Positions 1-26,114 of a stretch of 31,577 nucleotides of DNA are shown here, in pieces. A model generated the notes under the pieces. It ran no database searches and had not been told where the DNA came from. It worked only from the letters and a program-made list of their open reading frames with translations. The stretch is taken from IMG/VR virus record IMGVR_UViG_3300021959_000223, positions 1 through 31,577 of that record. The stretch is one strand, 5' to 3'. A program made the translations under genes and the position numbers. The number at the start of each line of letters is the position of its first letter. Positions within the stretch are counted from its first letter, which is position 1. The stretch is from a virus.

Positions 1-207
1 AATATTAAAAAGTTACAAGAGCAAATAGAAGTTTTGGGTGGCGCTTTAACAAGAGCGCTAAAAGACTTGGATGCTTTAAAAACTTTATCGCAAGGAACGC
101 TCACTGCCTTTCAATTACACATTGGAGAAGATGAGTGGAGTAAATTAGTAGACGAATTAAAAAACTTAGAAAATAGAAATGTGGAACCCAAACTGGAAAA
201 AAAATGA
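1..207 (+). CDS. Partial unknown protein upstream of ribonucleotide reductase (5' end outside window)
   Basis: Frame 1 is open from the first base to a TGA at 205-207, giving 68 visible residues; the start lies off the left edge. The visible part is charged and helical, with leucines spaced as in a coiled coil (KKLQEQIEVL, later LVDELKNLENR), and has the segment GTLTAFQLHIGEDEW. I do not recognise the family. Its last 29 bases overlap the start of the ribonucleotide reductase gene in another frame, so the two are probably co-transcribed and possibly translationally coupled. The overlap and the lack of in-frame stops argue it is real. A role in nucleotide metabolism is only suggested by position. 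Confidence 0.6.
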   Translation, partial: NIKKLQEQIEVLGGALTRALKDLDALKTLSQGTLTAFQLHIGEDEWSKLVDELKNLENRNVEPKLEKK

Positions 208-1900
208 AGATTACCCCTCGTGGGGTGATACAGACGTGTATAAAAAAACAATTGGAGGTGGTTATCTTATAGGAAATGAAACCCCAAAAGATGCTTATAT
301 GCGTGTTGCTACAACTGTAGCGAAACGTTTAAATCGTCCAGAACTAGCCGAAACTTTTTTTCAATATATATGGAAGGGTTGGCTATGTTTAGCGTCTCCT
401 GTGCTGTCTAATACTGGCACAGATCGAGGTTTGCCTATATCATGCTTTGGTATTGATGTTGGAGACTCGATATATGAGATTGGAATGAAAAACTTAGAGA
501 TGATGCTACTCGCAAAACACGGCGGCGGAGTGGGTATCGGAATAAATATGATTAGACCCGCCGGAGCTAATATAACTGGAAATGGAACATCTGACGGAGT
601 TGTGCCTTTTGCTAAGATATACGATTCAACTATACTTGCCACGAATCAAGGATCTGTCCGAAGAGGAGCTGCAAGCGTTAATATTAATATTGATCACCCC
701 GACTTTGAAGAGTGGTTGGAAATACGAGAGCCTAAAGGAGACGTTAATCGTCAATCGCTCAACTTACACCAGTGCGCTGTGGTCGGCGACAAGTTTATGC
801 GAAAACTTGATGCTGGCGATAAAGATGCGAGGAGGTTATGGGGTAAGCTACTTCAAAAACGTAAAGCAACTGGAGAACCTTATATCTTATTTAAGGGGAA
901 TACAAACAAAAATAATCCAGAGCAATACAGAAAGCACGGATTAAAAGTACATATGACAAACATATGCAGTGAGATTACATTACATACTGATGAATCTCAT
1001 TCGTTTGTTTGTTGTTTATCATCGTTAAACTTAGCCAAGTACGATGAATGGAAAAACACGAATCTTATATACGATAGTATATGGTTTTTAGATGGCGTGT
1101 TAGAAGAATTTATACAAAAGTCCAAAGGTAAAGTTGGTTTTCATAATTCTGTAAGATCTGCTGAAAAAGGTAGAGCTTTAGGATTAGGGGTGCTAGGCTG
1201 GCATACTTATTTACAAGATCAAGGTTTGCCGTTTGAAGGACTATTAGCACAATATGAAACAAGAAAAATATTTTCACAAATTAAAATTGAAAGCGAAAGA
1301 GCTTCCATGGCGCTTGCAGAAGAGTTTGGTGAGCCTCTATGGTGTAGGGGTTCAGGTTTTAGGAATACTCATCTCCGCGCCATTGCTCCTACTGTTAGCA
1401 ATAGTAAACTTAGTGGCAATGTTAGCCCCGGTATCGAACCCTGGGCCGCTAATGTATTTACGGAACAAAGCGCTAAAGGTACTTTCATTCGCAAGAACCC
1501 TACATTATTAAAATTATTTAAAAAACATAAAATTAATAATGAAAAAGTTTGGAACAAAATTTTAAAAGATGGGGGTTCTGTACAAGGCATTAAAGAACTT
1601 AATGATATAACTATAGGCAAATGGGATACGCCAGCAAAAGAAGTGTTTAAAACGTTTAAAGAAATTAATCAACTAGAATTAGTTAATCAAGCAGGTATAC
1701 GTCAACAATATATTGACCAATCTGTTTCTTTAAATTTAGCTTTTCCTTCTGTGGCTACGCCGAAGTGGATTAATAAGGTACATTATGAAGCATGGAAAAA
1801 AGGTATTAAAACCTTATATTATGTGCGAACGGAATCTGTTCTGAGAGGTGATATTGCTGATCAGGCAATGGATGAAAATTGTTTAGCGTGTGATGGTTAA
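179..1900 (+). CDS. nrdA: Class I ribonucleoside-diphosphate reductase large (alpha) subunit
   Basis: Reduces ribonucleotides to deoxyribonucleotides for phage DNA synthesis in the host cytoplasm, working with a radical-generating beta subunit not in this window. Key residues of the family are visible: active-site pair C89 (PISCFGIDVGDS) and C278 (SFVCCLSSLNL); the N-x-C-x-E catalytic triad N261, C263, E265 (TNICSE); the radical-transfer tyrosine pair in TLYYVRT near residue 545; and a C-terminal CLAC pair (C568, C571) that would be re-reduced by thioredoxin or glutaredoxin. At 573 residues it is much shorter than cellular NrdA (about 760) and has no N-terminal ATP cone, so dATP feedback through that domain should be absent. 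The ATG at 179 lies inside the upstream gene and leads directly into conserved sequence. It is followed by a hairpin terminator. Confidence 0.95.
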   Translation: MWNPNWKKNEDYPSWGDTDVYKKTIGGGYLIGNETPKDAYMRVATTVAKRLNRPELAETFFQYIWKGWLCLASPVLSNTGTDRGLPISCFGIDVGDSIYEIGMKNLEMMLLAKHGGGVGIGINMIRPAGANITGNGTSDGVVPFAKIYDSTILATNQGSVRRGAASVNINIDHPDFEEWLEIREPKGDVNRQSLNLHQCAVVGDKFMRKLDAGDKDARRLWGKLLQKRKATGEPYILFKGNTNKNNPEQYRKHGLKVHMTNICSEITLHTDESHSFVCCLSSLNLAKYDEWKNTNLIYDSIWFLDGVLEEFIQKSKGKVGFHNSVRSAEKGRALGLGVLGWHTYLQDQGLPFEGLLAQYETRKIFSQIKIESERASMALAEEFGEPLWCRGSGFRNTHLRAIAPTVSNSKLSGNVSPGIEPWAANVFTEQSAKGTFIRKNPTLLKLFKKHKINNEKVWNKILKDGGSVQGIKELNDITIGKWDTPAKEVFKTFKEINQLELVNQAGIRQQYIDQSVSLNLAFPSVATPKWINKVHYEAWKKGIKTLYYVRTESVLRGDIADQAMDENCLACDG

Positions 1901-2027: not shown

Positions 2028-3524
2028 TTATATTTTTACTCTAATTTCTCCGGTTGCTGTTTTGTATAAATAACCAGTTGTTAATCCGCCAGCACCAGCA
2101 GCAGTATCATCAGCATACGTGGGCAATGATAGTTTAGTACCTATAGCATCAAATGTTACAACAACAACTCCGTGTCTTTGTATTCTTACAGCTGAATTTG
2201 CTTTTTGATACTCAAATATACCTGCATTAATTTGTCCGTCTTTTCCAACAACCACATATGAACTTCCAGATGTTCCGCTATTTGATAATACAGATATACC
2301 TGCAGAATTTCCATCAATTAGTACTTTAAAATCATCTGCACCACTAATAGGTGTTACGGCTAACGTGCCAATAGTATCAGAAGCGGTCAAAGTAACCCAT
2401 TCTAATTCTGTGCCCGATGAAGGTACTCTTAAAACTTGCTGAGCTGAACCAATTGTGTTTGGTATTGTGAATGCGCCAATAGTTGCTTTACCAGGTATAC
2501 TAAATGAGCTTTCATTTAATGTTCCAATAGTAGTTGTATCAGCATAAAATTTTATTGATGATCCACCACCTCCTGAAACGAATGTTTCGCCAGCAGGTAA
2601 AACAGTTAAATGTGCACTTGATTCGTAAGATACGGGAGCAGACATTGTTACTTGAAAATATGCAGCGCCTGTTGGATCAGTAGCAGAAAGAAATTGACTA
2701 CTTGCATTATAAAAACCATTAACAGAAGCTACAGTTTCGTCTGTATTACTTTGATAATTAGATCCTCCACCTAAACCATAAATAACATCACCAACTTCTA
2801 TAGTGTCAAATATGGTATTTGAATCTAATAAATCTCCAGATGTTCCATTACTATATTGATTTACATTAAACTGAATAGCTGTTCCTCCAGCATTGCCAAA
2901 TCTAGTCCTAAATAATTCAACACCCCAAGTATATCCTGTGTCATTATCACTATCCGCCCTCAATCCTAATTCCCCGTAGGCTTTTATTTCTGAAGCGGCA
3001 TCAGTTGTTTCGTTACCTAATTGTATATCCCCAGTAAATGTAGCTGTTGTACCTATTAAACCTCCAGTTAAAGTTCCCCCGGCTAAAGCTAAATAAGTCG
3101 TTGCTGCATCTGCAGTTTTTAAATATCCTTCAACATTATCCGCGTATATGTTTCTCCATATTTTATCTGAAGCACCTAAGTCGTATGTGTTTGTTATGTC
3201 AGGTATAACGTGTGAATTCACATCGGCACTAAAAGATACTGTGTCTGTATCAGCATCACCAAATGTTAAATTACCTGATATTGTTGCATTACCTGTTACT
3301 GATATATTGCCTGTTACTGACAAGTTACCCCCTATAGTTCCGTTACCCGTTGTAGTAACTGTAGTAAATGATCCCGCATTAGTACCACCTAATACATAAT
3401 TACTTATACCTCCTACAGTATAATTTCTAGTTACGTAACCGTTATTAGGATCTCCATCAGACCCTATTAGTTTATCTCCGGCGGTTATTGTACCGTCTTG
3501 GGCTACTGTGTGTATTCTTGGCAT
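2028..3524 (-). CDS. Tail fibre / receptor-binding structural protein
   Basis: A 498-residue protein rich in Gly, Thr, Ser and Asn with few charged residues, typical of phage fibres. An N-terminal region (1-50) is followed by short repeats at about 60-89 (GNLSVTGNISVTGNATISGN), which suggest a beta-helical shaft. Next comes the segment SHVIPDITNTYDLGASDKIW, which I recognise from marine phage fibre and structural proteins. The extreme C-terminus, with LPTYADDTAAGAGGL and GYLYKTATGEIRVKI, matches a widespread fibre-end motif. It lies downstream of the lysis genes as the last large gene of the late module, and probably binds the host surface. The ATG at 3524 is preceded by an AT leader without Shine-Dalgarno. 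The receptor cannot be deduced. Confidence 0.75.
   Translation of the reverse strand: MPRIHTVAQDGTITAGDKLIGSDGDPNNGYVTRNYTVGGISNYVLGGTNAGSFTTVTTTGNGTIGGNLSVTGNISVTGNATISGNLTFGDADTDTVSFSADVNSHVIPDITNTYDLGASDKIWRNIYADNVEGYLKTADAATTYLALAGGTLTGGLIGTTATFTGDIQLGNETTDAASEIKAYGELGLRADSDNDTGYTWGVELFRTRFGNAGGTAIQFNVNQYSNGTSGDLLDSNTIFDTIEVGDVIYGLGGGSNYQSNTDETVASVNGFYNASSQFLSATDPTGAAYFQVTMSAPVSYESSAHLTVLPAGETFVSGGGGSSIKFYADTTTIGTLNESSFSIPGKATIGAFTIPNTIGSAQQVLRVPSSGTELEWVTLTASDTIGTLAVTPISGADDFKVLIDGNSAGISVLSNSGTSGSSYVVVGKDGQINAGIFEYQKANSAVRIQRHGVVVVTFDAIGTKLSLPTYADDTAAGAGGLTTGYLYKTATGEIRVKI
3258..3347 (-). repeat. Degenerate short repeats in the tail fibre shaft
   Basis: Residues 60-89 of the fibre consist of imperfect units of about six residues built on G-N-[LIA]-[ST]-[VI]-[TS], visible in the DNA as recurring 'attacctgttact'-like words. 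Such arrays form beta-helical or beta-prism shafts, and their number can vary between related phages. This is seen directly; the structural meaning is inferred from fibre families. Confidence 0.55.
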
Positions 3525-3526
3525 AG

Positions 3527-3988
3527 TTAAATTATTTTATATTTAGTTTTTCCGTTTTCTTTATATGCTTTCAGACATCTTTGTCTGTTGGAATCATGGT
3601 CAACATAGCTAACATGAACCCAATTAGGGCTATTATCATCCCCAAATTCCCATATGAGCTGATCAAAATCAAGATTATTTTTAATGTATTCGTACATGTC
3701 TTTATTTGACATGTAACCGCACGTGTCATCTATATCAATTGCGCGGCCTTCACAATGTTGTGATTTACTTGACCCGCCAATTGCAGTATTTAATTTATCG
3801 CAGCGATAGAATGAGTTTATAGCTATAGGTCCATTAACTGCTTTTCTTAATGGCTCAAATATTTTTTCAGCAATCAATTCCATATTTTGCAAATGATACG
3901 CGGTAGGTGTGTTTTCAATACCTAATCTTTCCGCTGTTTTGCTATACACACCTTCCTTGTAGCTAATGTGTTCACTTATTTTATTCAT
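3527..3988 (-). CDS. Endolysin, peptidase M15 family (peptidoglycan endopeptidase / D-Ala-D-Ala carboxypeptidase type)
   Basis: A 153-residue enzyme that probably cuts peptide cross-links or stems in the host cell wall at lysis. The M15 zinc-site pattern is clear: FYRCDKLNTAIGGSSKSQHC followed by EGRAIDID supplies H78 and D85, and NWVHVSY supplies H125 as the third ligand; E114 in LIWEFGD is a candidate catalytic acid. The length fits a single-domain phage M15 enzyme with no separate wall-binding domain. No signal peptide is seen, so it should need a membrane hole to reach the wall, consistent with the holin-like gene two genes upstream. Two bases separate its stop from the tail fibre start. 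Confidence 0.88.
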   Translation of the reverse strand: MNKISEHISYKEGVYSKTAERLGIENTPTAYHLQNMELIAEKIFEPLRKAVNGPIAINSFYRCDKLNTAIGGSSKSQHCEGRAIDIDDTCGYMSNKDMYEYIKNNLDFDQLIWEFGDDNSPNWVHVSYVDHDSNRQRCLKAYKENGKTKYKII

Positions 3989-3995
3989 ATATTAT

Positions 3996-4337
3996 TTAAT
4001 TTGTTGATGCTCTTCTTGCTGGAACTTTAGCACTATCAATTATTTCTTGTACAGCTTCATAACGTACTTTTAATTTCATTGAAATATCCGCTTGCCATGT
4101 AGCTATAGGCCTACCGTCTTTTAATATAATAATAGCAGGCACAGATCGTATTGCTTGTTTTACATTTGGAGACTGGTCTTCGTAATCAACTTTAATGATT
4201 TTAGCTCCTTGTAATTTGTTTAAATGTTCGTAATCGTTTCTTGTATTCCAATGAGAATTCATATACAATACTTCAATTTTTTGTGAAAATGCGTGAGTAG
4301 ATAGGAAAAGTAATATTAAAATTAAAATATTTTTCAT
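3996..4337 (-). CDS. Secreted thioredoxin-fold-like protein lacking the active-site cysteines
   Basis: 113 residues. Residues 1-19 form a signal peptide: lysine after Met, a long run of Ile and Leu, then THAFS before Gln, a plausible signal peptidase I site. There is no lipobox cysteine. The remainder reads like thioredoxin: a beta strand (KIEVLYM), the W-x-x-x-x stretch WNTRN (residues 30-34) at the place of WCGPC, and SVPAIIILKDG with the cis-proline equivalent P67. Both cysteines of the redox pair are Asn, and the mature protein has no cysteine, so disulfide chemistry is not possible. Its place between the holin-like gene and the endolysin suggests an envelope role in lysis or virion entry, but that is inference. 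It ends 7 bases before the endolysin start. Confidence 0.6.
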   Translation of the reverse strand: MKNILILILLFLSTHAFSQKIEVLYMNSHWNTRNDYEHLNKLQGAKIIKVDYEDQSPNVKQAIRSVPAIIILKDGRPIATWQADISMKLKVRYEAVQEIIDSAKVPARRASTN

Positions 4338-4339
4338 GA

Positions 4340-4621
4340 TTATTTATTTATTATCTCAAATAGTTTTTCGTCTATTCGGTCAAGTTTCTTCGAATTTTTA
4401 TCTACCTTTTCATCTATATCTAATATAGTTGAACGAATTAATTCATCTTTTAAATCAAATTCAGTTCTTGATACAGGTGGTTCCGGTAATTGCTTAGCAA
4501 GCTCTATATCAGCTTGTAATGCAAAGTACATTGCTGCAAGTGATATTGCTCCACCAACAATTATTCCAATCGTTTTCAAATCAAGTTGTACTTGTGTATT
4601 TTCTGATATTTGTTGAGCCAT
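4340..4621 (-). CDS. Holin-like single-span membrane protein
   Basis: 93 residues. One hydrophobic segment at about 17-35 (TIGIIVGGAISLAAMYFAL) is preceded by a short polar N-terminus and followed by a charged helical tail rich in Lys, Asp and Glu (about 56-93), probably a coiled coil (KVDKNSKKLDRIDEKLFEI). This layout, together with its position two genes upstream of the endolysin, fits a class III-like holin or another lysis membrane protein such as a spanin component. It has no recognisable family signature, so the holin call rests mainly on topology and context. Two bases separate it from the thioredoxin-like gene. Confidence 0.55.
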   Translation of the reverse strand: MAQQISENTQVQLDLKTIGIIVGGAISLAAMYFALQADIELAKQLPEPPVSRTEFDLKDELIRSTILDIDEKVDKNSKKLDRIDEKLFEIINK

Positions 4622-4652: not shown

Positions 4653-4931
4653 CTATTTTTTACGTCTTTTAAGATTTTTTACTCTTCTTGGTTTGCCAGC
4701 TGGTTGTCCTAATGATTTCTTCTCTCTAATCTTTTTTGCTTTTTCAGATGAGGACATTTCGCCAGATGTTTTTGGGGTTTTACTAGATACTCTTTTACTT
4801 GGTCTACAATATGGTACGCCTCTACCATCACCTTTGCGTCTTCCGCAAGGTTTACCAGTTCTAACGTCTATCCATTTTTCTTTGAACCAACGTTTTAATG
4901 CTGCACCTTTTTTAGTTTTTCTTACAGCCAT
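4653..4931 (-). CDS. Small basic protein, DUF5872-like
   Basis: 92 residues, very rich in Lys and Arg. The N-terminal half has the pattern LKRWFKEKWIDVRTGKPCGR, then GVPYCRP, then KTPKTSGEMSSSEKAK, which I recognise as the DUF5872-type family found in many phages. Two cysteines (in GKPCGR and PYCRP) could hold a metal or simply be conserved. The C-terminal tail is basic and probably disordered. The function is unknown; nucleic-acid binding is a guess from charge. Its ATG overlaps the stop of the 39-residue gene upstream as TAATG, indicating coupled translation and probably a shared role. Confidence 0.75.
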   Translation of the reverse strand: MAVRKTKKGAALKRWFKEKWIDVRTGKPCGRRKGDGRGVPYCRPSKRVSSKTPKTSGEMSSSEKAKKIREKKSLGQPAGKPRRVKNLKRRKK

Positions 4932-5052: not shown

Positions 5053-8000
5053 TTATTTTCTTAGTTTTGGTGATCTTAAATTTCCACCGCTTAATTTTGG
5101 TGTTCTTAAATTTTTGTATTTTTTTCCATGATTAGCAGGTTTAACTCTTGGCTTTGAATCTTCATCAACACCTAATTGATATTTTGTCCAACCGCCAAGC
5201 AACGCTATTCTTTGCCAAGCATCTAAATCTTGAGTCACTGCGGTGCTAACATGATCATATTTTCTTAAAACTCTATCTACAGGTACATTTGTAAGTGCAG
5301 CTGTAACATTTGCCCCCGCCATCCAAGCTGGGTTTTTTAAGCCTATACCTTCAGATTTCATTTCGTCCATATCCCATTTTAAACTTCTAGCTGCCATTTT
5401 TAATCTTGTAAATTTAGCATCAATAGGCGGGGATAAAGCAACAAATTCATCTGCAACTTTTTCATAATCAGGATTCTTTTTATTTGACTCTTGCATTAAT
5501 TTTATAATTGCATTTTTTGCTACTGAAAAAAAAGCCGCTTTAGTCCCCATACCTCTTAATATAGAGTCGGCCATGCTATTGCCTACATCAAAATATTTTC
5601 TTTTATATTCTTCTTCTTCTTCATCTGTAAATGCTAATGCAAATAAACCTTTTTGTAATGCATTAAATATAATATTTTGTATAACTGCATAATAAGCAAT
5701 TCTTTGCATTCTTATTAAATCACTTTGTAATAAAGTTTTACCAGGTATTTTTCTTCTATTTATCATATCAAGAATATCTTTCTTTTTAATTCTTGCATAC
5801 TGAGCAGGTGTATTTGCCCAAGCTAAAACAAGCCTACCTAATTCGCTTGCTTGTTCTTTACTAATTTTATCCGGTCTACTTGATTGCTGAGATTCTTCAG
5901 CTGTTTCTTTAAAATCTAAAAATGCCTGAGCTTCAGCTTGATCTGTGGTCATTCCTTGCTTTTCATATGTTTTTACTCTGTTTCTGTAAAATGATGCACC
6001 ACCTAACGAAATTGCAAAACTATCTGCCATTTGTGTAGGTAAAAATCCTACTTGTAATATTTTAGCAATAACTCCTTTTGCACCTCTTTTCTTTGCAATA
6101 CTAGCAATATCAGATTCGCTTACATTTAATTTTAATCCACCTCTTCTGTCTCTTAAATATTTAGAATTAAATAAATTTATAAAATCTTTCCAAAATTGTT
6201 TTTGATTTGCAAAAGCTAAACCAGCTTTAAACATGTTGTTATCACTATAATTTATAAAATTAGCGGTAGATATTGTTTGTAGTAATGCCGATCTGGTGTT
6301 AAAGAACATTGTAACACCAATTGAGCCAGTCATCCAATCAATAAACCCTTGAACCATACTGTCTTTAGCGGGTTTTCTGTTAATACCGCTTTTCATTCTA
6401 CGGATTATATCCTCTACAGCTGCTCTATATTTTTTACCGTATAAAGCTTCTAGCTTATTTAAATTTTGTTTAGTAAATATTTTATCAATATTTTCATTAA
6501 ATTGTGTTAAATAATTACTTCTTTTAAAGCTATTAATATGTTCTGCCATATCTAAACCAATAGTACCAGCTACCCAGCTTTCATCTGGTTTTGGATAACT
6601 ATCATTTTTATATGTGGCTATTAAACCATCTGCAAATTCTTTTAGCTTAGGATCTTTTCTTACGTAATTAACTAATTTTTTTTCATCTGTTTTTGATAAC
6701 CCTGGAATAGTATGACCAGCTTTATTAAAAGCATATACTCTTACAGCATCTTCTTTAGTATATGGCTCTCCAGGTATTTCAGTAGTTAAATCTCTATTCT
6801 TTATACCAACTTGTTTTTTCATAGCATTAAAATCATCTAACATAGCCATTCTAGCGTTAGATAAATTATTTATACCTCTTGCAAATGGATCTAAAATATT
6901 TTCTTTTACCCAAGCAATTTGTCCTTCTCCTAGTTTTCCTTTACCCATAAATTTATACATAAGACCCATAAAGTCCTCTGCTTGCGGCGGAATAAATATA
7001 TCAAATCTTCCTTTCTTCCTTCCTGCTACTTTTGCTTTAGCATCACTATATCTTTTTTCTTTAGCAACACCAGTTGTTTCTTCAATAATTTTATTAAAGT
7101 CAGCATCTAAATCAACTTCATTAAAATATGATTGCTGCATTTTAGCATTCATATCATCAATTTTTTGAGCCTTATCTAATACAGAATTATTATTATCTGT
7201 GTTTACATCTGAACCTCTTAACAATGGTGCTTTCTTAAGATTATTTTTTGCTGTTTGTTTTGTTGCAAACTCACCTTGATTATTAATACCAAACGTTTGT
7301 CCAATTGATTTGCCGTCTGTAAATATAATATTATTTACATCAATACCGCCATCAATATTTCCAACAGATGTATTAAAATATCTTTGCCACCAGAAGTTTG
7401 ACATTACTTTCCAGCCAGGTAACATGCTTGTTCCAACGCCGCCTTTAGCTAATTTTTTGTTTTCTTTAGCATCTAAAGCAATTAATTTATAATTATCAAC
7501 AATAGCATTGTAATCTGCTTTGAAGTTTCTATTCGTTAATATACTATCAAATAAATAAGCATATGCACCGGTAGCGGGCATTGCGTGTTCCATTTCGTAT
7601 AATTTTAAAATACCATTTTTATTTACGGCTCCTTCAGGATTTAATGAATATCCAACAAATTCAGCACCTAATCTATGCGGATGATTTTTATTATTACTAA
7701 CAAAAGAATAATACACAGCTAATGCCCTAGCTGCTTCTTTGCTTTCTGTAGGATCATTTTTTATAGCTTCATTTGTTCTTTCCCACATAGCGCGATGTAT
7801 ACGCATATTTTTCTCATTCCATTTTTTTATTGGTGATTTACCATCTTTACCAGGAATTAAATTTCTAGCAATTTTTTCAGGAGTTTTTATCATTGTATCA
7901 TATGAAGATTGAGATAAATTATCTATATCAACTTTTTTGCCTTCTTCATTTGTATACGTATAATTTTCACCATAAACTATACTATCATCATTTTTTAACT

Positions 8001-11000
8001 CTTCTAATTTTTCTTGATAATAAGCATCCATTTTACCGGCAATACGATCGCTAACTCTCATTATAGCTTTTGTTGCAAAGAAAGCATCTTTTGGAAAATA
8101 CGGGAAAACATGATTTTTCAATGCTTCTACAAAATTATCAATTCCTTTTTCTGTTTGAAGATCAAAAGCTTCTTCAATACCAAGATGTTTTAAAACTTTA
8201 TTTATTATTTTAGTTCTCCCCTCTATAGCGGTTTCAGCTTCTAAAATAAATTCTCTATCAAGTATACTATCGGCTTTTTCTTGCGGTAATATTTCCGCTG
8301 TAAGCCCCACATCAGAATATAAAAAGTTTGATTTACCAGCTGCTGCATCTGCTCTAGCTTGCTGTTTTGCATCTGGTTTTATATCTAAGCTTTCTATTTT
8401 GTCAGTCGCAATTTTATTTACAGTATTTGCTGCTTTTACTTTAGCATAACCCTTTAAGTTCTGACCAATTTTTCTATCGTAGTTATTTAATTGGCCAGCC
8501 TCTGTAATACCTGCAAATTCAGACTGTACTTTTTCAATTGTTTCATTTAATATTTTTCCGGTAAATTCAGGTTTTAATTTATGTACAAAAGAGTTTTGTC
8601 TTCTTTTACCAGTATTATCATAAAAGAAATTTAAAACGTTTCTAGGTAAACCTATAGAAAGATTTTTTGCTTCTTTTGAAACTTCAACTTTTAATCCAGA
8701 CTCATCAAGTACAGATATGTCACCAGATATATTTTCGGGCGCTAATGATTTTACAAACTTTCTAACTTCGTTTGCGTCGGCTAAATCCCTTTGTATATTA
8801 CCCGCTTCAGAAGATTCAGGTATACCATCAGTTATTCTTTTAGCGTAAGTTAAATTAGCTTTTGGATTATCAATTTTATTTGCAGGTATATCAAACATTA
8901 TACTACCAACTTTACCAGCAAACTTATCAGATAGTTTTTTATAAGTTAATCCTTTATAATTTTTTTCATTAACCTTAACAGCATCTTTTATAGCATCAAC
9001 ATTATTTTTTACATTCTTATATTCTAATGGATTTACTCTTGTTTCTTTTGTAGTTGTAGTTTCTTTAAATTCTGTTTCAGTCATTGTTTCTGTGCTAAAA
9101 CTTTCTTCAAGAACTTGATCACCCATTTTTTTAGCTCTTTCAAATATTTCTGCTTTTCTACGCCCAAATACAGAGCTTAAATACGTTGTAACTTTTTCAG
9201 GTCCTGTATAATTTTTTAACACAGGGATTTTTCTTGCAGAAAAACCTTGCATTGCAGGAAATATACCATTTAATTGTTCTTTTACAGCATCTTTTACATT
9301 TTCCATTGTATATGGGCCAGATGGTGTAAACTTTAAAGCGCTGCTTATTACAGGCCAGTTGTGTTCAACAATTGCTTCAGTAATAGAAAATTTTGATGAA
9401 TTATTGGTCGAAGGCGAATTAAAAGTTTGAGCTAATAATTCATTTGTTATTAGGCCTTCATCTAAATCTTTTTTAAATTCTTTACCTAAATCAGTTACTA
9501 CATCGGAGCTTCTAAATTTACCTGTCTCAATATCTAATCCTGCGGTTTCAACTTCCCCTTCAAACGCGGCAAATTTTTCTTGTAATGCAAGCTGTATATT
9601 TTCTCTATTTATTCCTTTTGCATTTTTAAGCTTTTTTCTTAATTCATTTGCTGTATTTTGCGTTTCTAATTCATTAACCTTTTCTATTTGCGATTCAATT
9701 TGTTCTCTTCTTCCCCTTCGCATTATAGCATTATTTGGACCCATATCTTCATTTTCCTGTATCATAGCGTTTAGCTTTGCTATACCCTTTAATCTATCTG
9801 ATTCTAATTCCATATTAAACTCAGCTTTTCTAGTCTTTATTTCTTCTTCTTTTACAGGCGCTTTAGGTGTTGTAATAGGCCCAAGCTTAACTCTTCCTGA
9901 CTTTGCAAAGGTTTTATTGTAATTTTTTAAAAAATCAAATGCTTGTTGACCAGTTTTAATATTAGCTTTATTTATTTCGTCAGCTGATAATTTTAATTTA
10001 TATTTAAAATAATCATTTATTTTATCAGCAAAGTTTTGCCAAAATCCAGTATCTTGTCTTTTCCAATCAATATTTCCAATGTTTATTTCATCAGATATTG
10101 CAGTAAAAACTTCTTGTGCATATTCTGCTTCTGTATATACTCGTCCATCTTTTTGCTTTCTACCTACAAATGTTCCGTCTTCATTGTATTCTCCGTAAGT
10201 TCCTTTTAACCTACTTAATATATTATTTACAGTGCCTTCAGATATTCCTTTACCAGACTGTTCTTGTAAATAATTGTTTAAATCTTTGCTAATGTTTATT
10301 ATTTCTGCATCAGTAAAAGTACGATCTAAAACGGCATGCAATACTTCATGCGGCATAGCTGCAGACAATACATCTAATTTTGATTCAAACTGTGCTTGAG
10401 TACCACGAGTTCTTATTAACTTTTTATTTAAAAATATAAGCTGTTTACTTCCTTCAGTATATGGTGTTACAAAAGCAGGAGCATTTGAATTATTTACCGC
10501 TTCTTGCAGCTCTGGAGATATATCATCAGTAAATTTAAAATTACCATTTTCGTCACTTTCTACAAGTGTTACATCATCAGCAACACCTAATGATTTTAAA
10601 AAGCTTAATCCATTTTTAATACCTTTTTCGTAATTTTTTATATAATCATTGAAAGTAAGAACTCCACTTTCACTGAGTTCTCCTGTTGAACTTAGCTTAC
10701 TTATTTCTTGATCAATGTCACCTAGCTTGTTGCTTTTTGTATTTTGATCAGTAATCATTTTTCTTGTATGCAATAAGTCAGCAAGCCTAGCTCTATTTTT
10801 ATTATTTGCTTTATTGCCTAATTTAGCATTTGCTTCATCAAGAAATTGAGAATTTTCTAATATTTGATTTCCAACTTCTTCACTAATAAATTTTTTCTTT
10901 TTTAATCTATCTACAAATTTGATAACCTGTTTACCATCATAGTTACCGTTAACCATGTTATCTAAATTAGTAAGATTTTTTGCTAATTTTACTGAAAATC

Positions 11001-13383
11001 CTTTTGTTGAATTTTTGTACATTTCAAAAGCAACATTATGATAAGTACCTCCAATGCCACCAATAGCTTCATTAAACCCCTCTGTAAAACTTAAATCTTC
11101 ACCAGCAGTTTGTTGTGCTACCATTTCTCCACTAAATTCAAACCCAGGCTGCACTATAAGTTGTGACCCTAATGCTCTTGTAAATTGTTCACCACCGGTT
11201 GCCAAAGGTTTTACCATCATACCCGCCGCTTTAGCACTCATAAAGTTTGCAATCGCTATAGGTATACCTCTTTTAATTCCTTTTTCTCTTGCTTGACTTT
11301 GTATTTCAGGATTCATTAAAGCTTTTTCTACTGTTTCGGCATTGGTTATATCTATTTGATTTTCTTGCATAACATCTAAATATGCGTTTCCATATTCCAT
11401 ACCAAAACCAGCAATCGCTGTCCATGCTTGCAATGCCTTAGCTGCTGTTGGTGCACCCCCTATAGCTGCACCACCACCTACAATTGGAAAAAATATTTTT
11501 GAACCACTTCTTATTAATTGGCTCATTGAATTTCCAAATAAAGCTGTAGAAATTTCAAATGGATTTTGACCTAATAATTTTAATTGTTCCGCAACAGAGT
11601 CAGCATTTAAGTATTGTTCGTATACTCTAGAATTTAATATACCTTGTTGGTATGCTTTTTCTGTGGCTATTAATTTTGCAACTTCTGCGGCATCTTCAGG
11701 GTTATCCATGTCAACGCCACCGTAAAGTTCTGACATAATAGTAGAATTGATTTTACCACTACTCCAGCCGCTTTTTATATTATTTAAAAAATTCTTATAT
11801 TGATCTGTATACTCACCCCTAGTTCTTTGCACATCATCAAAGTTAAGCAACATTGTTGAAATTTCATTTAAATCGTTTAAATTTTTAGAACGTTGATATA
11901 GTGCACTGTGCTTAGTAGAAAAATCATTTAAAGGTTTTGCATTATTAACAATAGTGTTTAGCGCATCTATTTTTGAATTTAATAAATCATTTTCTTCTTT
12001 ACTTTTTGGTTTATATTTTTCTAATTTACTAATATCACTGCCAATAATTTGTTCAATTTCTTTTGTTGCATTATCTATTTGACTGTTAAATTCATTAACT
12101 TTTAATTCAAAATTTTTATTATTAAATTCTAAATCATATGCTTGTTCCCATTCTTGCTGTAGTTTTTTCTGCTCTTGTTCAATTACAGGAATTTCTTTTT
12201 CAATTTCAGCTCCTGCTTTATTTTTAATCTCAGCATAAAATAAATTTAAATCACCCTCTGCTTTTAAAAAATCAGGGTTAGTAGTTATATTTGAATAGTC
12301 TTTATTTTCCTTTTTAAATTTTTCTAATTCTGATTTTAAAATATCTCTTTTTGCAAAGCCATTTTGATCAAAATATTCAGGATATTTTTTTATTTCTTCT
12401 TCAGTGCCTTGATATGACCTTTGCATAATACCTGGCGCTAAAAGTTTTATTGTTAATGGAATTGGCACACTACCAGGTTGTTGATACCTTGTTGTTTTAA
12501 ATTGAAGTTGTTCAATAAAATTAATTCTTTCTTGATTATTTTTACTTTTATTTTTAAGGTTTTTTATGTCTTTATAATTAAACCCTCGGCTAGCATACCA
12601 ATGATCAGCAAATAATTCTTCAGTTTGATCTTCGTCATACATTTCGCCAGAGCTTCCTTTAAATTGAACTTTGCCATCAACTCCAGATTCTATCATTGAT
12701 TTTTTCAATTTTTGAAATTCTTTAAGATCAAATTCTTCAAGCTTTTTAGGTGAAGCATAACCTACAGCGTCTTTTTTATTTGCTTTAACAAATTCTTCTA
12801 ATTCATCAAAACTATTTCCCCCTCTGAATAAATCTCTTTTGTTAATTTTAAATGTTTTTGTTACAGGATTTTCAGCGTCAGTTGTAGATACTTTTACAAA
12901 ATCACCTATACCAGTTTCTTCAAAAACAAAACCATATTTGCCAAATCTTTTCATTAATTCTGGCTGTACTTTTTCTTCCGTAAAGTCTTGAAAACTAACG
13001 GCATTTGATTTTCTAGTTCTTATATTTTCAAAGTATTTAAAATCTTCTTGTTCTTGAGGGGTAAATTTACTTGCACCTCCAGTTAAAATATTAGCTCTGC
13101 TTGGCGCTGATACCGATGAACCAGGATCCAATTTGGAATCCGTACTGCTTAGGTTTTCTAACCCTACACTCGCAGTCTCCTGTACAGGGTCGTTTGACTT
13201 TCCCAGTTTAAACTGAGTTTTAAACGAATCAAAATCTTTTGTATATAAACCATCTTGCGATAGTTTATTATGCAATTTTTGAGCCGCTTCATCTTCTTCA
13301 AATTGTTTTAAAAAATCATCATAGGATTTTGTATATAATTTATCAGAAAATAAATTATTATATAAAATTTTTGGATCTGCCAT
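5053..13383 (-). CDS. Giant internal virion / ejection protein (T7 gp16 position) with HExxH metalloprotease-like site and LPD38-like C-terminus
   Basis: 2776 residues, third of a gp14-gp15-gp16-like trio, so probably packed in the virion and ejected with DNA into the host envelope. Visible parts: two N-terminal copies of an L-x-N-x-L...LYTK...QF repeat (7-58); charged coiled-coil stretches (about 350-500); a Gly/Ala-rich hydrophobic zone at about 625-790 that could insert into membrane; a zinc-protease-like site HEVLH at 1012-1016 with a possible third ligand E1091 in QEVFTAISDE; an unidentified conserved-looking stretch with YEMEHAMPAT near 1930; and a C-terminal region (about 2340-2720) resembling the large polyvalent protein-associated domain LPD38. 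No lytic transglycosylase motif was seen, unlike T7 gp16. The tail ends in two NLR-[TS]-PKL copies. Confidence 0.8.
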   Translation of the reverse strand: MADPKILYNNLFSDKLYTKSYDDFLKQFEEDEAAQKLHNKLSQDGLYTKDFDSFKTQFKLGKSNDPVQETASVGLENLSSTDSKLDPGSSVSAPSRANILTGGASKFTPQEQEDFKYFENIRTRKSNAVSFQDFTEEKVQPELMKRFGKYGFVFEETGIGDFVKVSTTDAENPVTKTFKINKRDLFRGGNSFDELEEFVKANKKDAVGYASPKKLEEFDLKEFQKLKKSMIESGVDGKVQFKGSSGEMYDEDQTEELFADHWYASRGFNYKDIKNLKNKSKNNQERINFIEQLQFKTTRYQQPGSVPIPLTIKLLAPGIMQRSYQGTEEEIKKYPEYFDQNGFAKRDILKSELEKFKKENKDYSNITTNPDFLKAEGDLNLFYAEIKNKAGAEIEKEIPVIEQEQKKLQQEWEQAYDLEFNNKNFELKVNEFNSQIDNATKEIEQIIGSDISKLEKYKPKSKEENDLLNSKIDALNTIVNNAKPLNDFSTKHSALYQRSKNLNDLNEISTMLLNFDDVQRTRGEYTDQYKNFLNNIKSGWSSGKINSTIMSELYGGVDMDNPEDAAEVAKLIATEKAYQQGILNSRVYEQYLNADSVAEQLKLLGQNPFEISTALFGNSMSQLIRSGSKIFFPIVGGGAAIGGAPTAAKALQAWTAIAGFGMEYGNAYLDVMQENQIDITNAETVEKALMNPEIQSQAREKGIKRGIPIAIANFMSAKAAGMMVKPLATGGEQFTRALGSQLIVQPGFEFSGEMVAQQTAGEDLSFTEGFNEAIGGIGGTYHNVAFEMYKNSTKGFSVKLAKNLTNLDNMVNGNYDGKQVIKFVDRLKKKKFISEEVGNQILENSQFLDEANAKLGNKANNKNRARLADLLHTRKMITDQNTKSNKLGDIDQEISKLSSTGELSESGVLTFNDYIKNYEKGIKNGLSFLKSLGVADDVTLVESDENGNFKFTDDISPELQEAVNNSNAPAFVTPYTEGSKQLIFLNKKLIRTRGTQAQFESKLDVLSAAMPHEVLHAVLDRTFTDAEIINISKDLNNYLQEQSGKGISEGTVNNILSRLKGTYGEYNEDGTFVGRKQKDGRVYTEAEYAQEVFTAISDEINIGNIDWKRQDTGFWQNFADKINDYFKYKLKLSADEINKANIKTGQQAFDFLKNYNKTFAKSGRVKLGPITTPKAPVKEEEIKTRKAEFNMELESDRLKGIAKLNAMIQENEDMGPNNAIMRRGRREQIESQIEKVNELETQNTANELRKKLKNAKGINRENIQLALQEKFAAFEGEVETAGLDIETGKFRSSDVVTDLGKEFKKDLDEGLITNELLAQTFNSPSTNNSSKFSITEAIVEHNWPVISSALKFTPSGPYTMENVKDAVKEQLNGIFPAMQGFSARKIPVLKNYTGPEKVTTYLSSVFGRRKAEIFERAKKMGDQVLEESFSTETMTETEFKETTTTKETRVNPLEYKNVKNNVDAIKDAVKVNEKNYKGLTYKKLSDKFAGKVGSIMFDIPANKIDNPKANLTYAKRITDGIPESSEAGNIQRDLADANEVRKFVKSLAPENISGDISVLDESGLKVEVSKEAKNLSIGLPRNVLNFFYDNTGKRRQNSFVHKLKPEFTGKILNETIEKVQSEFAGITEAGQLNNYDRKIGQNLKGYAKVKAANTVNKIATDKIESLDIKPDAKQQARADAAAGKSNFLYSDVGLTAEILPQEKADSILDREFILEAETAIEGRTKIINKVLKHLGIEEAFDLQTEKGIDNFVEALKNHVFPYFPKDAFFATKAIMRVSDRIAGKMDAYYQEKLEELKNDDSIVYGENYTYTNEEGKKVDIDNLSQSSYDTMIKTPEKIARNLIPGKDGKSPIKKWNEKNMRIHRAMWERTNEAIKNDPTESKEAARALAVYYSFVSNNKNHPHRLGAEFVGYSLNPEGAVNKNGILKLYEMEHAMPATGAYAYLFDSILTNRNFKADYNAIVDNYKLIALDAKENKKLAKGGVGTSMLPGWKVMSNFWWQRYFNTSVGNIDGGIDVNNIIFTDGKSIGQTFGINNQGEFATKQTAKNNLKKAPLLRGSDVNTDNNNSVLDKAQKIDDMNAKMQQSYFNEVDLDADFNKIIEETTGVAKEKRYSDAKAKVAGRKKGRFDIFIPPQAEDFMGLMYKFMGKGKLGEGQIAWVKENILDPFARGINNLSNARMAMLDDFNAMKKQVGIKNRDLTTEIPGEPYTKEDAVRVYAFNKAGHTIPGLSKTDEKKLVNYVRKDPKLKEFADGLIATYKNDSYPKPDESWVAGTIGLDMAEHINSFKRSNYLTQFNENIDKIFTKQNLNKLEALYGKKYRAAVEDIIRRMKSGINRKPAKDSMVQGFIDWMTGSIGVTMFFNTRSALLQTISTANFINYSDNNMFKAGLAFANQKQFWKDFINLFNSKYLRDRRGGLKLNVSESDIASIAKKRGAKGVIAKILQVGFLPTQMADSFAISLGGASFYRNRVKTYEKQGMTTDQAEAQAFLDFKETAEESQQSSRPDKISKEQASELGRLVLAWANTPAQYARIKKKDILDMINRRKIPGKTLLQSDLIRMQRIAYYAVIQNIIFNALQKGLFALAFTDEEEEEYKRKYFDVGNSMADSILRGMGTKAAFFSVAKNAIIKLMQESNKKNPDYEKVADEFVALSPPIDAKFTRLKMAARSLKWDMDEMKSEGIGLKNPAWMAGANVTAALTNVPVDRVLRKYDHVSTAVTQDLDAWQRIALLGGWTKYQLGVDEDSKPRVKPANHGKKYKNLRTPKLSGGNLRSPKLRK
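13210..13365 (-). repeat. Two-copy N-terminal repeat in the giant ejection protein
   Basis: Residues 7-28 (LYNNLFSDKLYTKSYDDF, ending LKQF) and 37-58 (LHNKLSQDGLYTKDFDSF, ending KTQF) are spaced exactly 30 residues apart and share L-x-N-x-L, LYTK, and [YF]-D-x-F-x-x-QF. This is a clear internal duplication, possibly a docking motif for another core protein or the capsid. The role is inferred; the repeat is seen directly. Confidence 0.75.
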
Positions 13384-24899: not shown

Positions 24900-26114
24900 T
24901 TAATAATTTTTCAGTTTTAATTTTAGCCCTGAATTATTATCACCTGAAATAACTCTCACTTTTGTGCCGCCGGCTTCAACAAACCCATCAGCAGTTTTTC
25001 TAGGATCCATATTAATGTTCTTAGCTTCTGCCGTCATTTGTTTTATAGTGTCTGCTTTGCCTTGCTCATAAAAGTGATTAGCTATTGCGTCAGGATTAGA
25101 AGCAGCAAATAAAGCTTTATGAAAATCACCAGAGTTGGTTAGGAGCGAATCCTGATTAACAAATTTATCAAAGACACTTGATATATTCTGTGTTTTCACT
25201 TTGCTTACATCTTTAACATTGAAACGATATTTTTTTTCTCCAACATTGAAATTAAAACCTTTAAAATCATTATTGAAAACTTTATTAGTTTCTTGCTCAA
25301 AATGTGATGTTTGCTTCTGCAATAATTCATCGGCTTGTTTTTGCTCTTCAGTATATCGATTGAAAAAGTCAACTGCTTTTTGTTGCTCAGGAGCTAACTT
25401 AGAACCCAACTTGACTTCTTTGTAATATGTGTCCTTGAGACCTGTCAAAAAGTTTTTAGCTTTTGCAACCTCTTCCTTAAGAGCTAATTTTTTTCTTTTT
25501 ATATCTCTATCCTCATCTACTTCTTCGTCATATGAAAAATTATCTTCCATAAGGAATTGTATTTCATCATAACTTAAATGAGGTTTAGTTTGTTTATAGT
25601 ATTCAGCTAATAATGCATCTTGATCTACATTACTATAATCCGCGTTTAACCTAACATAATCTTCCAGGGTACCACCTGTTTCATTCATGAACTTTACTAA
25701 GTCCATCATGTTTTCAGGATATTCTACCTCTGGTTCTTTTGTTTTAGCTTTGATTTCTTCAGCTGGCTCAGTTTTGCTTTCTTCTTGCTCTGCAACCACT
25801 GGAGCCTCACCATTACTGGTTTCGTCATTAATTATTTCTTCTAATACTGGTGTTTCTTCTACTTTTTCTTGTTGTACTTCTTGCAATTCCACTTCGGTTT
25901 CTTGCCCAGCTTTTTCATTCTCGCTGCTTCCGCGTAACACGCCATTTTCTGTTTCTTGTTCTTGAACGGCATCTGTTTCTGTTTTAGGTTCGCTTAAATT
26001 TACTTTGTACATGCCAGACTCCGTGTCATAATTGGAATCTTTCTGCACCGCTTCTTCTTGTTCAGCAATAGACTTTTCTTCAGCATCTATTACTTTTGCT
26101 TTAATTTCTGCCAT
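24900..26114 (-). CDS. Scaffold-like capsid assembly protein
   Basis: 404 residues, strongly acidic. Residues 1-130 are low complexity, mostly Glu, Gln, Val, Thr and Pro, probably disordered. From about 135 (YPENMMDLVKFMNETGGTLE, then DYVRLNADYSNVDQDAL) it becomes helical and charged, with long coiled coils through about 300, then a basic patch and a C-terminus ending SGLKLKLKNY. Acidic, helical composition between portal and major capsid genes is the standard place and look for a scaffolding protein that guides shell assembly and then leaves. No protease is visible in the window that could remove it. Its ATG follows an AT leader. Confidence 0.7.
   Translation of the reverse strand: MAEIKAKVIDAEEKSIAEQEEAVQKDSNYDTESGMYKVNLSEPKTETDAVQEQETENGVLRGSSENEKAGQETEVELQEVQQEKVEETPVLEEIINDETSNGEAPVVAEQEESKTEPAEEIKAKTKEPEVEYPENMMDLVKFMNETGGTLEDYVRLNADYSNVDQDALLAEYYKQTKPHLSYDEIQFLMEDNFSYDEEVDEDRDIKRKKLALKEEVAKAKNFLTGLKDTYYKEVKLGSKLAPEQQKAVDFFNRYTEEQKQADELLQKQTSHFEQETNKVFNNDFKGFNFNVGEKKYRFNVKDVSKVKTQNISSVFDKFVNQDSLLTNSGDFHKALFAASNPDAIANHFYEQGKADTIKQMTAEAKNINMDPRKTADGFVEAGGTKVRVISGDNNSGLKLKLKNY

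Follow-up and report, generated by a model that had tools for sequence, protein, structure and literature searches.

A Phage Protein Family with a Predicted Thioredoxin Fold and No Active-Site Cysteines, Encoded Beside a Putative Inner-Membrane Coiled-Coil Protein

The Locus and Its Phages

The stretch of DNA analyzed here (the window) is the whole IMG/VR virus record IMGVR_UViG_3300021959_000223, a fragment of 31,577 nt. Its minus strand carries, in this order, a giant gene, a DUF5872 gene, the genes for two small proteins denoted here as TMC93 and TRX, an M15-type endolysin gene and a fibre-like ORF, while a gene resembling those of ribonucleotide reductase (RNR) lies on the opposite strand. 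The features considered in this work are the following:

5053-13383, minus strand: giant gene, 2776 aa (our own label, without family match)
4653-4931, minus strand: DUF5872 gene
4340-4621, minus strand: TMC93, 93 aa, the "holin-like" gene of a preliminary description of this DNA; N-terminal transmembrane (TM) helix, then a coiled coil
4445-4468, minus strand: juxtamembrane segment RTEFDLKD of TMC93, residues 52-59; candidate docking site for TRX
3996-4337, minus strand: TRX, 113 aa, putative secreted, redox-dead thioredoxin-fold protein (from the ORF, profile matches and predicted fold)
4284-4337, minus strand: predicted signal peptide of TRX, residues 1-18, with a putative mature start at Gln19 according to the Bacteroidetes Q-rule
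4236-4250, minus strand: WNTRN, residues 30-34 of TRX, in place of WCGPC; with Asn27, MNSHWNTRN (sequence and family alignment)
4137-4139, minus strand: Pro67 of TRX, at the thioredoxin cis-proline position (VP at 66-67), kept in 229/229 sequences
4071-4097, minus strand: family-specific segment WQADISMKL of TRX, residues 81-89, its pattern conserved in the family
3527-3988, minus strand: M15-type endolysin (Pfam Peptidase_M15_3, PHROG phrog_894)
2028-3524, minus strand: fibre-like ORF, 498 aa (our own label, without family match)
179-1900, plus strand: RNR-like gene (our own label, without family match)

Only 2 nt separate TMC93 from TRX in the window, and 7 nt separate TRX from the endolysin gene. 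The product of 28562-30772 matches annotated terminases of Flavobacterium, Cellulophaga and Tenacibaculum phages (31-45%) and that of one environmental phage (63%); TRX is carried by marine phages whose hosts are probably Bacteroidota. By eye, the giant protein includes HEVLH, a zinc-metalloprotease-like motif, and the RNR-like gene is split across several ORFs in one contig (L005:6476-8260; L045:6422-8206). The TMC93-TRX pair is also present on a contig of jumbo-phage size (IMGVR_UViG_3300030202_003189, 231,285 bases; L293) and, together with the outer-membrane (OM)-barrel-like gene described below, on CALBOT010000064.1 (L351), which is filed as a Candidatus Nitrosopelagicus MAG and is probably a misbinned Bacteroidota phage contig.

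TRX Lacks Both Active-Site Cysteines Throughout Its Family

The TRX ORF runs from ATG to TAA and encodes a precursor without any cysteine. The preliminary description had seen in it an exported thioredoxin-like protein, with WNTRN at the position of WCGPC and the cis-proline kept, and both landmarks were found where it had placed them (residues 30-34, and VP at 66-67). Its further claims could be examined across 229 distinct TRX sequences, the window included, each of at least 95 aa, shorter ones having been dropped. These came from scans of viral contigs with the TRX protein, two alignments and three TMC93 proteins, four of the scans contributing the best 80 of 81, 134, 192 and 550 loci; loci from separate scans overlap on the same contigs, and only exact copies were discarded in counting distinct sequences. 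Since the pattern of one TRX-anchored scan demanded Trp30 and the first Asn, the motif frequencies given here lean on the TMC93-anchored scans too.

The claim that both cysteines are changed to Asn is true of the window, and cysteine is absent family-wide at position 31 (0/229) and at position 34 (0/229, with seven sequences gapped), which makes the loss of both active-site cysteines a fixed trait of the family. The replacement by Asn is less general, N-x-x-N being present in just 177 of the 229 sequences: residues 30-34 read WNxxN in 159, FNxxN in 18, FVxxN in 16, FTxxS in 11, FIxxD in 8 and otherwise in 17. Likewise, the mature chain of the window has no cysteine at all, as had been stated, but 108/229 carry a lone one elsewhere, never as CxxC. 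In conservation among residues 19-104, position 34 ranks fifth and position 31 ninth. All 15 viral loci of the first two TRX scans read [WF]NxxN, and both AAT and AAC are used at both Asn codons in these loci, as expected under selection for Asn. In a tree of the family, N-x-x-N is present in 103 of 125 representatives and the labels need four changes; the motif is missing mainly in one clade of 21 rows (support 100/98; FVxxN, FTxxS, FIxxD and the like are the readings of one clade), with groups on both of its sides keeping it, and the few columns and the midpoint root leave the direction of the change unproven. From these sequence patterns, we read the Asn pair as being under purifying selection, with one clade having moved on. 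Decay of a thioredoxin in a single genome was ruled out by the [WF]NxxN reading in 15/15 loci and by the lack of Cys at 31 and 34 in the 229-sequence set.

As a separate observation, the DUF5872-TMC93-TRX block is duplicated in tandem in some loci (L030:4646-6291, L031:4892-6039, L101 and L102); in the duplicated blocks one TRX copy is truncated or out of frame, and the broken copy of L031 reads WYSRN.

The proposed signal peptide is likewise consistent with the family data. In Bacteroidetes, cleavage by signal peptidase I exposes a Gln residue, the Q-rule (PMC5837995), and Gln19, the putative mature N-terminus, is preceded by a short hydrophobic leader in 225 of the 229 sequences, while a lipobox-like motif occurs in just one. 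Because its leader fits the Q-rule and lipobox-like motifs are limited to that single case, TRX is most likely soluble and periplasmic.

A Predicted Thioredoxin Fold Outside the Redox Thioredoxins

Alone, the window TRX matches Pfam Thioredoxin at E 0.012 (16.0 bits), below the curated cut-off of 23.5, and phmmer aligns it with PDB thioredoxins at E 0.0044 to 1. Of 44 family representatives, 13, not including that of the window, match Pfam Thioredoxin at E <=0.01 (best 3.4e-07), and the Pfam cut-off is passed by four deep-clade TRX genes in 18 long records (G008, G013, G014 and G017). A profile of 11 relatives finds many PDB thioredoxins at E 1e-5 to 1e-4; its best PDB chain (E 2e-06) has three domains, and none of its stretches passes on its own. 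AlphaFold models had a pLDDT of 83 with 11 sequences and of 87.5 with 44, with a core above 90. When the first of these (pLDDT 83) was compared with PDB structures, thioredoxins were the top Foldseek matches (E about 1e-4, TM-score about 0.5 to 0.6), a few of the 50 listed being fusions or other entries; all 50 matches listed by VIA-align were thioredoxins or thioredoxin-like (Z 10.5 to 8.6 over about 80 residues), the best superimposing at 1.7 A over 78 residues (Z 10.5). Both searches speak only for the families among the matches listed. In a viral structure library searched with the second model, four unnamed proteins rank first, followed by named phage thioredoxins. The profile matches, the models and the structure searches together make the thioredoxin fold well supported as a prediction, in line with the preliminary description; neither a predicted structure lacking this fold nor homologues with the motif aligned elsewhere were found. 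Chance resemblance to thioredoxin was ruled out by the profile, the structure matches and the conservation across the 229 sequences.

Both the thioredoxin fold and redox-inactive versions of it are known. With thioredoxin itself (PF00085/TrxA), TRX shares the predicted fold, the order of strands and helices, the Trp before the motif and the cis-proline, and it differs in having no CxxC, in its export leader and in being paired with a TM gene; its Tyr25 occupies what we take to be the place of the buried Asp of TrxA. Membership of the redox thioredoxins was rejected because CxxC is absent, Cys is found in 0/229 at 31 and 34, and the window protein falls below the Pfam cut-off. ERp29 and YbbN-type proteins are redox-inactive thioredoxin-fold binding proteins, and they share with TRX the use of this fold without the CxxC reaction (E. 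coli YbbN matches the TRX model with a VIA-align Z of 8.9). Unlike them, TRX is phage-encoded, has an export leader, mostly carries Asn at both positions and has a membrane partner gene.

Pfam and PHROG scans gave no family of its own for TRX, and tblastn with the TRX proteins of the window, L138 and L077 found no match in 50,697 GenBank phage records. In parts of five relatives chosen by their terminases (MW202828, elemoE, phi46:3, phi38:1 and Gundel_1), the best profile match had an E of 0.11. No description of such a protein was found in the literature searched, and "thioredoxin" occurs zero times in the main text of PMC8776804. As far as these searches show, what appears to be new is a phage family in which both active-site cysteines are replaced throughout, in a fixed gene pair with TMC93 and with a frequent third partner.

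TMC93 Is the Constant Partner of TRX

The gene pairing was examined from both sides. In the TRX-anchored set (L001-L096 minus L012, which is the window; one of its scans kept the best 80 of 81 loci), TMC93 lies upstream of TRX in 89 of 95 loci, and the other six begin no more than 251 nt from TRX; a stricter ORF filter lowers the figure to 86/95, the exceptions being the same six and three in which TRX is cut by the contig end. Anchored on TMC93 (best 80 of 134 loci), TRX is directly downstream in 76 of 80, the other four ending soon after TMC93. In two further scans (best 80 of 192 and of 550), TRX lies within 400 nt of 156 of 159 TMC93 ORFs; two of the three exceptions are at a contig end, and in L299 TRX comes 577 nt on, past two small ORFs. 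The commonest spacings among 234 distinct pairs are -4 (61), +2 (48), -1 (41) and +3 nt (17). The constant neighbour of TRX is TMC93, not the endolysin.

TMC93 has one TM helix, with a median best 19-residue mean hydropathy of 1.94, followed by a short part with a median length of 58 aa. Of the two flanks of the helix, the C-terminal one is the more negative in 168 of 210 proteins, and the two are equal in 33; the insertions of seven residues, one heptad in length, that occur in L137 and L167 are consistent with a coiled coil. An i-spanin would be oriented N-in/C-out with a coiled coil in the periplasm, an arrangement that the charge bias and the insertions would fit, and TMC93 is most likely an inner-membrane protein whose coiled coil would point into the periplasm.

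Pfam and PHROGs give TMC93 no consistent name: among the matches of 20 members there was no Pfam holin, and two PHROG holin families were matched by one member each (E 0.0013 and 0.08). In GenBank phage records, tblastn found no match for the TMC93 proteins of L009 and L164 and just two short chance matches for that of the window. A scan of genome contigs with the window protein found none; the same scan with the L009 protein found three MAG contigs, in all of which a TRX-like ORF lies downstream (by eye) and which hint at Flavobacteriales or Winogradskyella as hosts. Separately, a second ORF of the TM-plus-coil type, 104 aa long, occurs near TRX in some loci (L011:5232-5546, L017:6296-6610, L019, L021 and L029); it has the N-terminus and TM helix in common with TMC93 and differs in the part that follows (WPRGEMGALPDDAKQDLRI).

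Thioredoxins bind extended peptides beside the cis-proline, and for this reason the juxtamembrane segment of TMC93 is proposed here as a candidate docked peptide. In 184 pairs with an N-x-x-N TRX, TMC93 has R/K at position 52 in 183, E54 in 183, D/E at 56 in 176 and L/M at 57 in 183. In the 50 pairs without N-x-x-N, position 56 is T/S/Q/R in 42 and position 57 is Y/F in 47, with E54, K58, D59 and R63 retained. When TRX was scored simply as having Asn31 (186 pairs) or not (48), any residue being allowed its best state, position 57 of TMC93 told the state in 233 of 234 pairs, the highest value of all columns; one of two exceptions at this position is a pairing with the second TM/coil ORF. The next columns by mutual information are 56 and 65, and all three fall in or beside the juxtamembrane segment. 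The co-change of Asn31 and TMC93 may thus point to this segment, as a pointer rather than proof: it is weak evidence, because the switch is essentially one event in one clade.

Endolysins and Holins Around the Pair

The preliminary description had set TRX between a holin-like gene and an endolysin, in the lysis region. The region was confirmed, while the stable neighbour proved to be the "holin-like" gene, TMC93, which in many relatives is probably not the main holin; adjacency to the endolysin did not hold up among relatives. An M15 endolysin profile matches in 65 of 105 loci, adjacent downstream of the pair in just 38, within 3 kb downstream in 21, within 3 kb upstream in 5 and farther away in 1. 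The remaining loci comprise 24 too short to tell and 16 without M15 within 3 kb on both sides. Among these 16, Amidase_2 was confirmed in L139 and L081, in the endolysin's place adjacent downstream, and in L140, after one more gene; L119 has an amidase by eye, an L080 protein matches an endolysin PHROG and L093 has a look-alike ORF. In others of the 16 no endolysin was found, as in L043, where tail genes including a tape measure follow the pair. Two long records, G001 and G005, have an M15 endolysin about 2 kb from a three-TM holin match and, in contig coordinates, about 30 kb or more from the pair, and seven of nine pieces fetched around three-TM holin matches showed no M15 or recognisable amidase. 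An endolysin as fixed partner of TRX was therefore rejected, its type and place varying over the 105 loci.

The three-TM holin family PF11351 is found in 11 of 18 long records, six of them above the cut-off, and in 0/14 control genomes. Its carriers include G002 and G003, close kin of the window; in the window's own record, a fragment, it has no match. In L139, L154 and L143, the endolysin is likewise followed by a three-TM holin-like ORF, in each case with a score below Pfam's cut-off, and similar ORFs of L081 and L032 have no Pfam match. With a separate holin family in 11/18 long records, the name "holin" is doubtful for TMC93. The pair, then, often accompanies lysis genes, although the endolysins are of two types or more and the structural genes beside it differ; the M15, amidase and three-TM holin placements imply that an endolysin neighbour is not needed and that TMC93 need not be a holin. 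As a side observation, a small protein encoded between TRX and the endolysin in L135 (4928-5278) matches a PHROG lipoprotein family (E 8e-06), and similar small ORFs were seen by eye in the deep-clade loci L138, L143 and L163.

These data bear on the main alternative, possible but rather unlikely, which is modelled on T and RI of phage T4 and in which TMC93 would be a single-TM holin with a periplasmic domain, and the secreted TRX would bind that domain and delay lysis. T4 T has one TM helix and a periplasmic domain (PMC11413866), and RI, whose signal peptide is cleavable, functions in the periplasm (PMC8385771). The layout would thus be alike, each pair combining a protein that spans the membrane once and extends into the periplasm with a small one that is secreted, and the TRX leader, fitting Q-rule cleavage, may be compared with that of RI. 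By eye, no other listed ORF between the giant gene and the endolysin stood out as a membrane protein, which, with the lack of a PF11351 match in the window record, favours this alternative. The PF11351 matches of the long records, the three-TM ORFs after the endolysin and the weakness of the PHROG holin matches of TMC93 all speak against it. The fold of RI is helical, whereas that predicted for TRX is that of thioredoxin; the adjacent gene pair and the separate three-TM holin in many records are further differences. Neither T nor RI was listed by name as a family in the Pfam and PHROG scans.

A Third Gene Beside the Pair in Other Clades

In clades other than that of the window, the pair is adjoined by an exported-looking family of about 360 aa. 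This third gene is found in 157 loci and is next to the pair in 125. Of 326 loci with TMC93, 61 have it immediately upstream of TMC93, 64 have it after TRX, within 1.2 kb of the TMC93 end, and 31 have it elsewhere. It is absent from 94 loci with flanks and from 76 with short flanks. Among 19 long records it is present in four and missing from the 15 on the window's side of the tree, the window included. Windows with the character of amphipathic strands exceed the mean of shuffled sequences in 60 of 60 proteins tested (of 129 distinct sequences in all), and the C-terminal residue is F in 65/129 and L in 45/129, as in outer-membrane barrels. Only 74/129 agree with a crude pattern for a Gln leader, some leaders being lipoprotein-like by eye. 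An alignment of the family gave no PHROG match, no PDB chain and only weak, unrelated-looking Pfam matches, and tblastn with one of its proteins found no match in GenBank phage records.

A Possible Role in the Envelope Step of Lysis

The reading favoured here, tentatively and with somewhat less than even confidence, is that TRX works in the periplasm as a subunit without catalytic activity, binding TMC93 during the envelope step of lysis. TRX would be exported to the periplasm, fold as a thioredoxin incapable of redox chemistry and serve as the soluble subunit of a two-gene unit with the inner-membrane TMC93. What was once the substrate groove, formed by Asn27, Trp30, Asn31, Asn34 and the loop of the cis-Pro, would bind a peptide non-covalently, namely, the conserved TMC93 segment just outside the membrane. 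The complex would work at the envelope step, where the thioredoxin fold would keep TMC93 clamped or in position for as long as holin and endolysin have not done their part. In the other clades, the OM-barrel-like protein may complete an inner-membrane, periplasmic and outer-membrane set. The computation shows the sequence family, its loss of Cys, the predicted fold, the pairing of the two genes and their frequent linkage to an endolysin. Export, topology, binding and its site, and a direct role of TRX in lysis or host interaction, as suggested in the preliminary description, are what we infer. The short part of TMC93 after its TM helix, the absence of the OM-barrel gene on the window's side, the loci without M15, the distant M15 endolysins of G001 and G005 and the predicted spanins of some Bacteroidota phages (see below) count against the favoured role.

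Superinfection exclusion or envelope take-over is quite improbable as the function: TRX and TMC93, joined in some clades by the OM-barrel-like protein, would be produced late and change the envelope, thereby blocking injection by further phages. A set of components of the inner membrane, the periplasm and the OM type, none of them recognised as an enzyme, would suit such a function, as would the distance of the endolysin from the pair in some records; the frequent company of endolysin genes (65/105 loci) and the change of endolysin type while the pair stays are against it. It is very improbable that TRX is a virion or injection component, packaged or tail-bound, that crosses the envelope at infection: the pair does follow the giant gene, taken for a virion protein, in many window-clade loci, but a leader followed by Gln at +1 implies that TRX would be exported in the host, and the pair is also found beside other structural genes, such as the tail genes of L043. 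Phage thioredoxins often accompany RNR genes and RNR is near the pair in many window-clade loci, but that TRX is a decayed reductant for the nearby enzyme (179-1900) is hardly credible given its export leader, the lack of Cys at either position in 229/229, the Asn kept with mixed codons and the presence of the pair in 12-kb loci without an RNR match (e.g., L032 and L043).

Returning to the favoured lytic role, a more far-reaching version of it would make TRX and TMC93, with the OM barrel in several clades, the substitute for spanins among marine Bacteroidota phages. The outer membrane would then be breached jointly by a coiled coil in the inner membrane, a thioredoxin fold in the periplasm that lacks the active-site cysteines and binds peptides in an Asn-x-x-Asn groove, and an outer-membrane protein (OMP), which we consider unlikely on balance. 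How spanin-less phages open the outer membrane was posed as a question in PMC6139136, which lists Bacteroides and Croceibacter phages among them and considers an OMP possible as o-spanin, an idea that the third gene of the other clades resembles. With two-component spanins (lambda Rz/Rz1), the pair shares small size, adjacent or overlapping genes near the endolysin and an inner-membrane member with a coiled coil; unlike them, TRX is predicted to be globular and not a lipoprotein, and the part of TMC93 after the TM helix is short. TRX as the o-spanin of such a system was ruled out by the lipobox-like motif in only 1/229. A crude lipobox scan of the window gave one lipobox-like ORF (25687-25965, plus strand), antisense to a large ORF. 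The host of phage B40-8 is Bacteroides. Predicted spanins are reported for this phage (PMC6139136) and for the Cellulophaga phages Ingeline and Nekkels (PMC8776804), and their presence in some Bacteroidota phages counts against a spanin replacement.

Widespread as it is, and joined in many loci by an OM-barrel-like gene, the pair provides a concrete candidate for how the outer membrane may be breached without recognisable spanins. If this is true, the thioredoxin fold would serve in TRX purely as a binding module, selection having retained Asn at the positions of the former catalytic cysteines.
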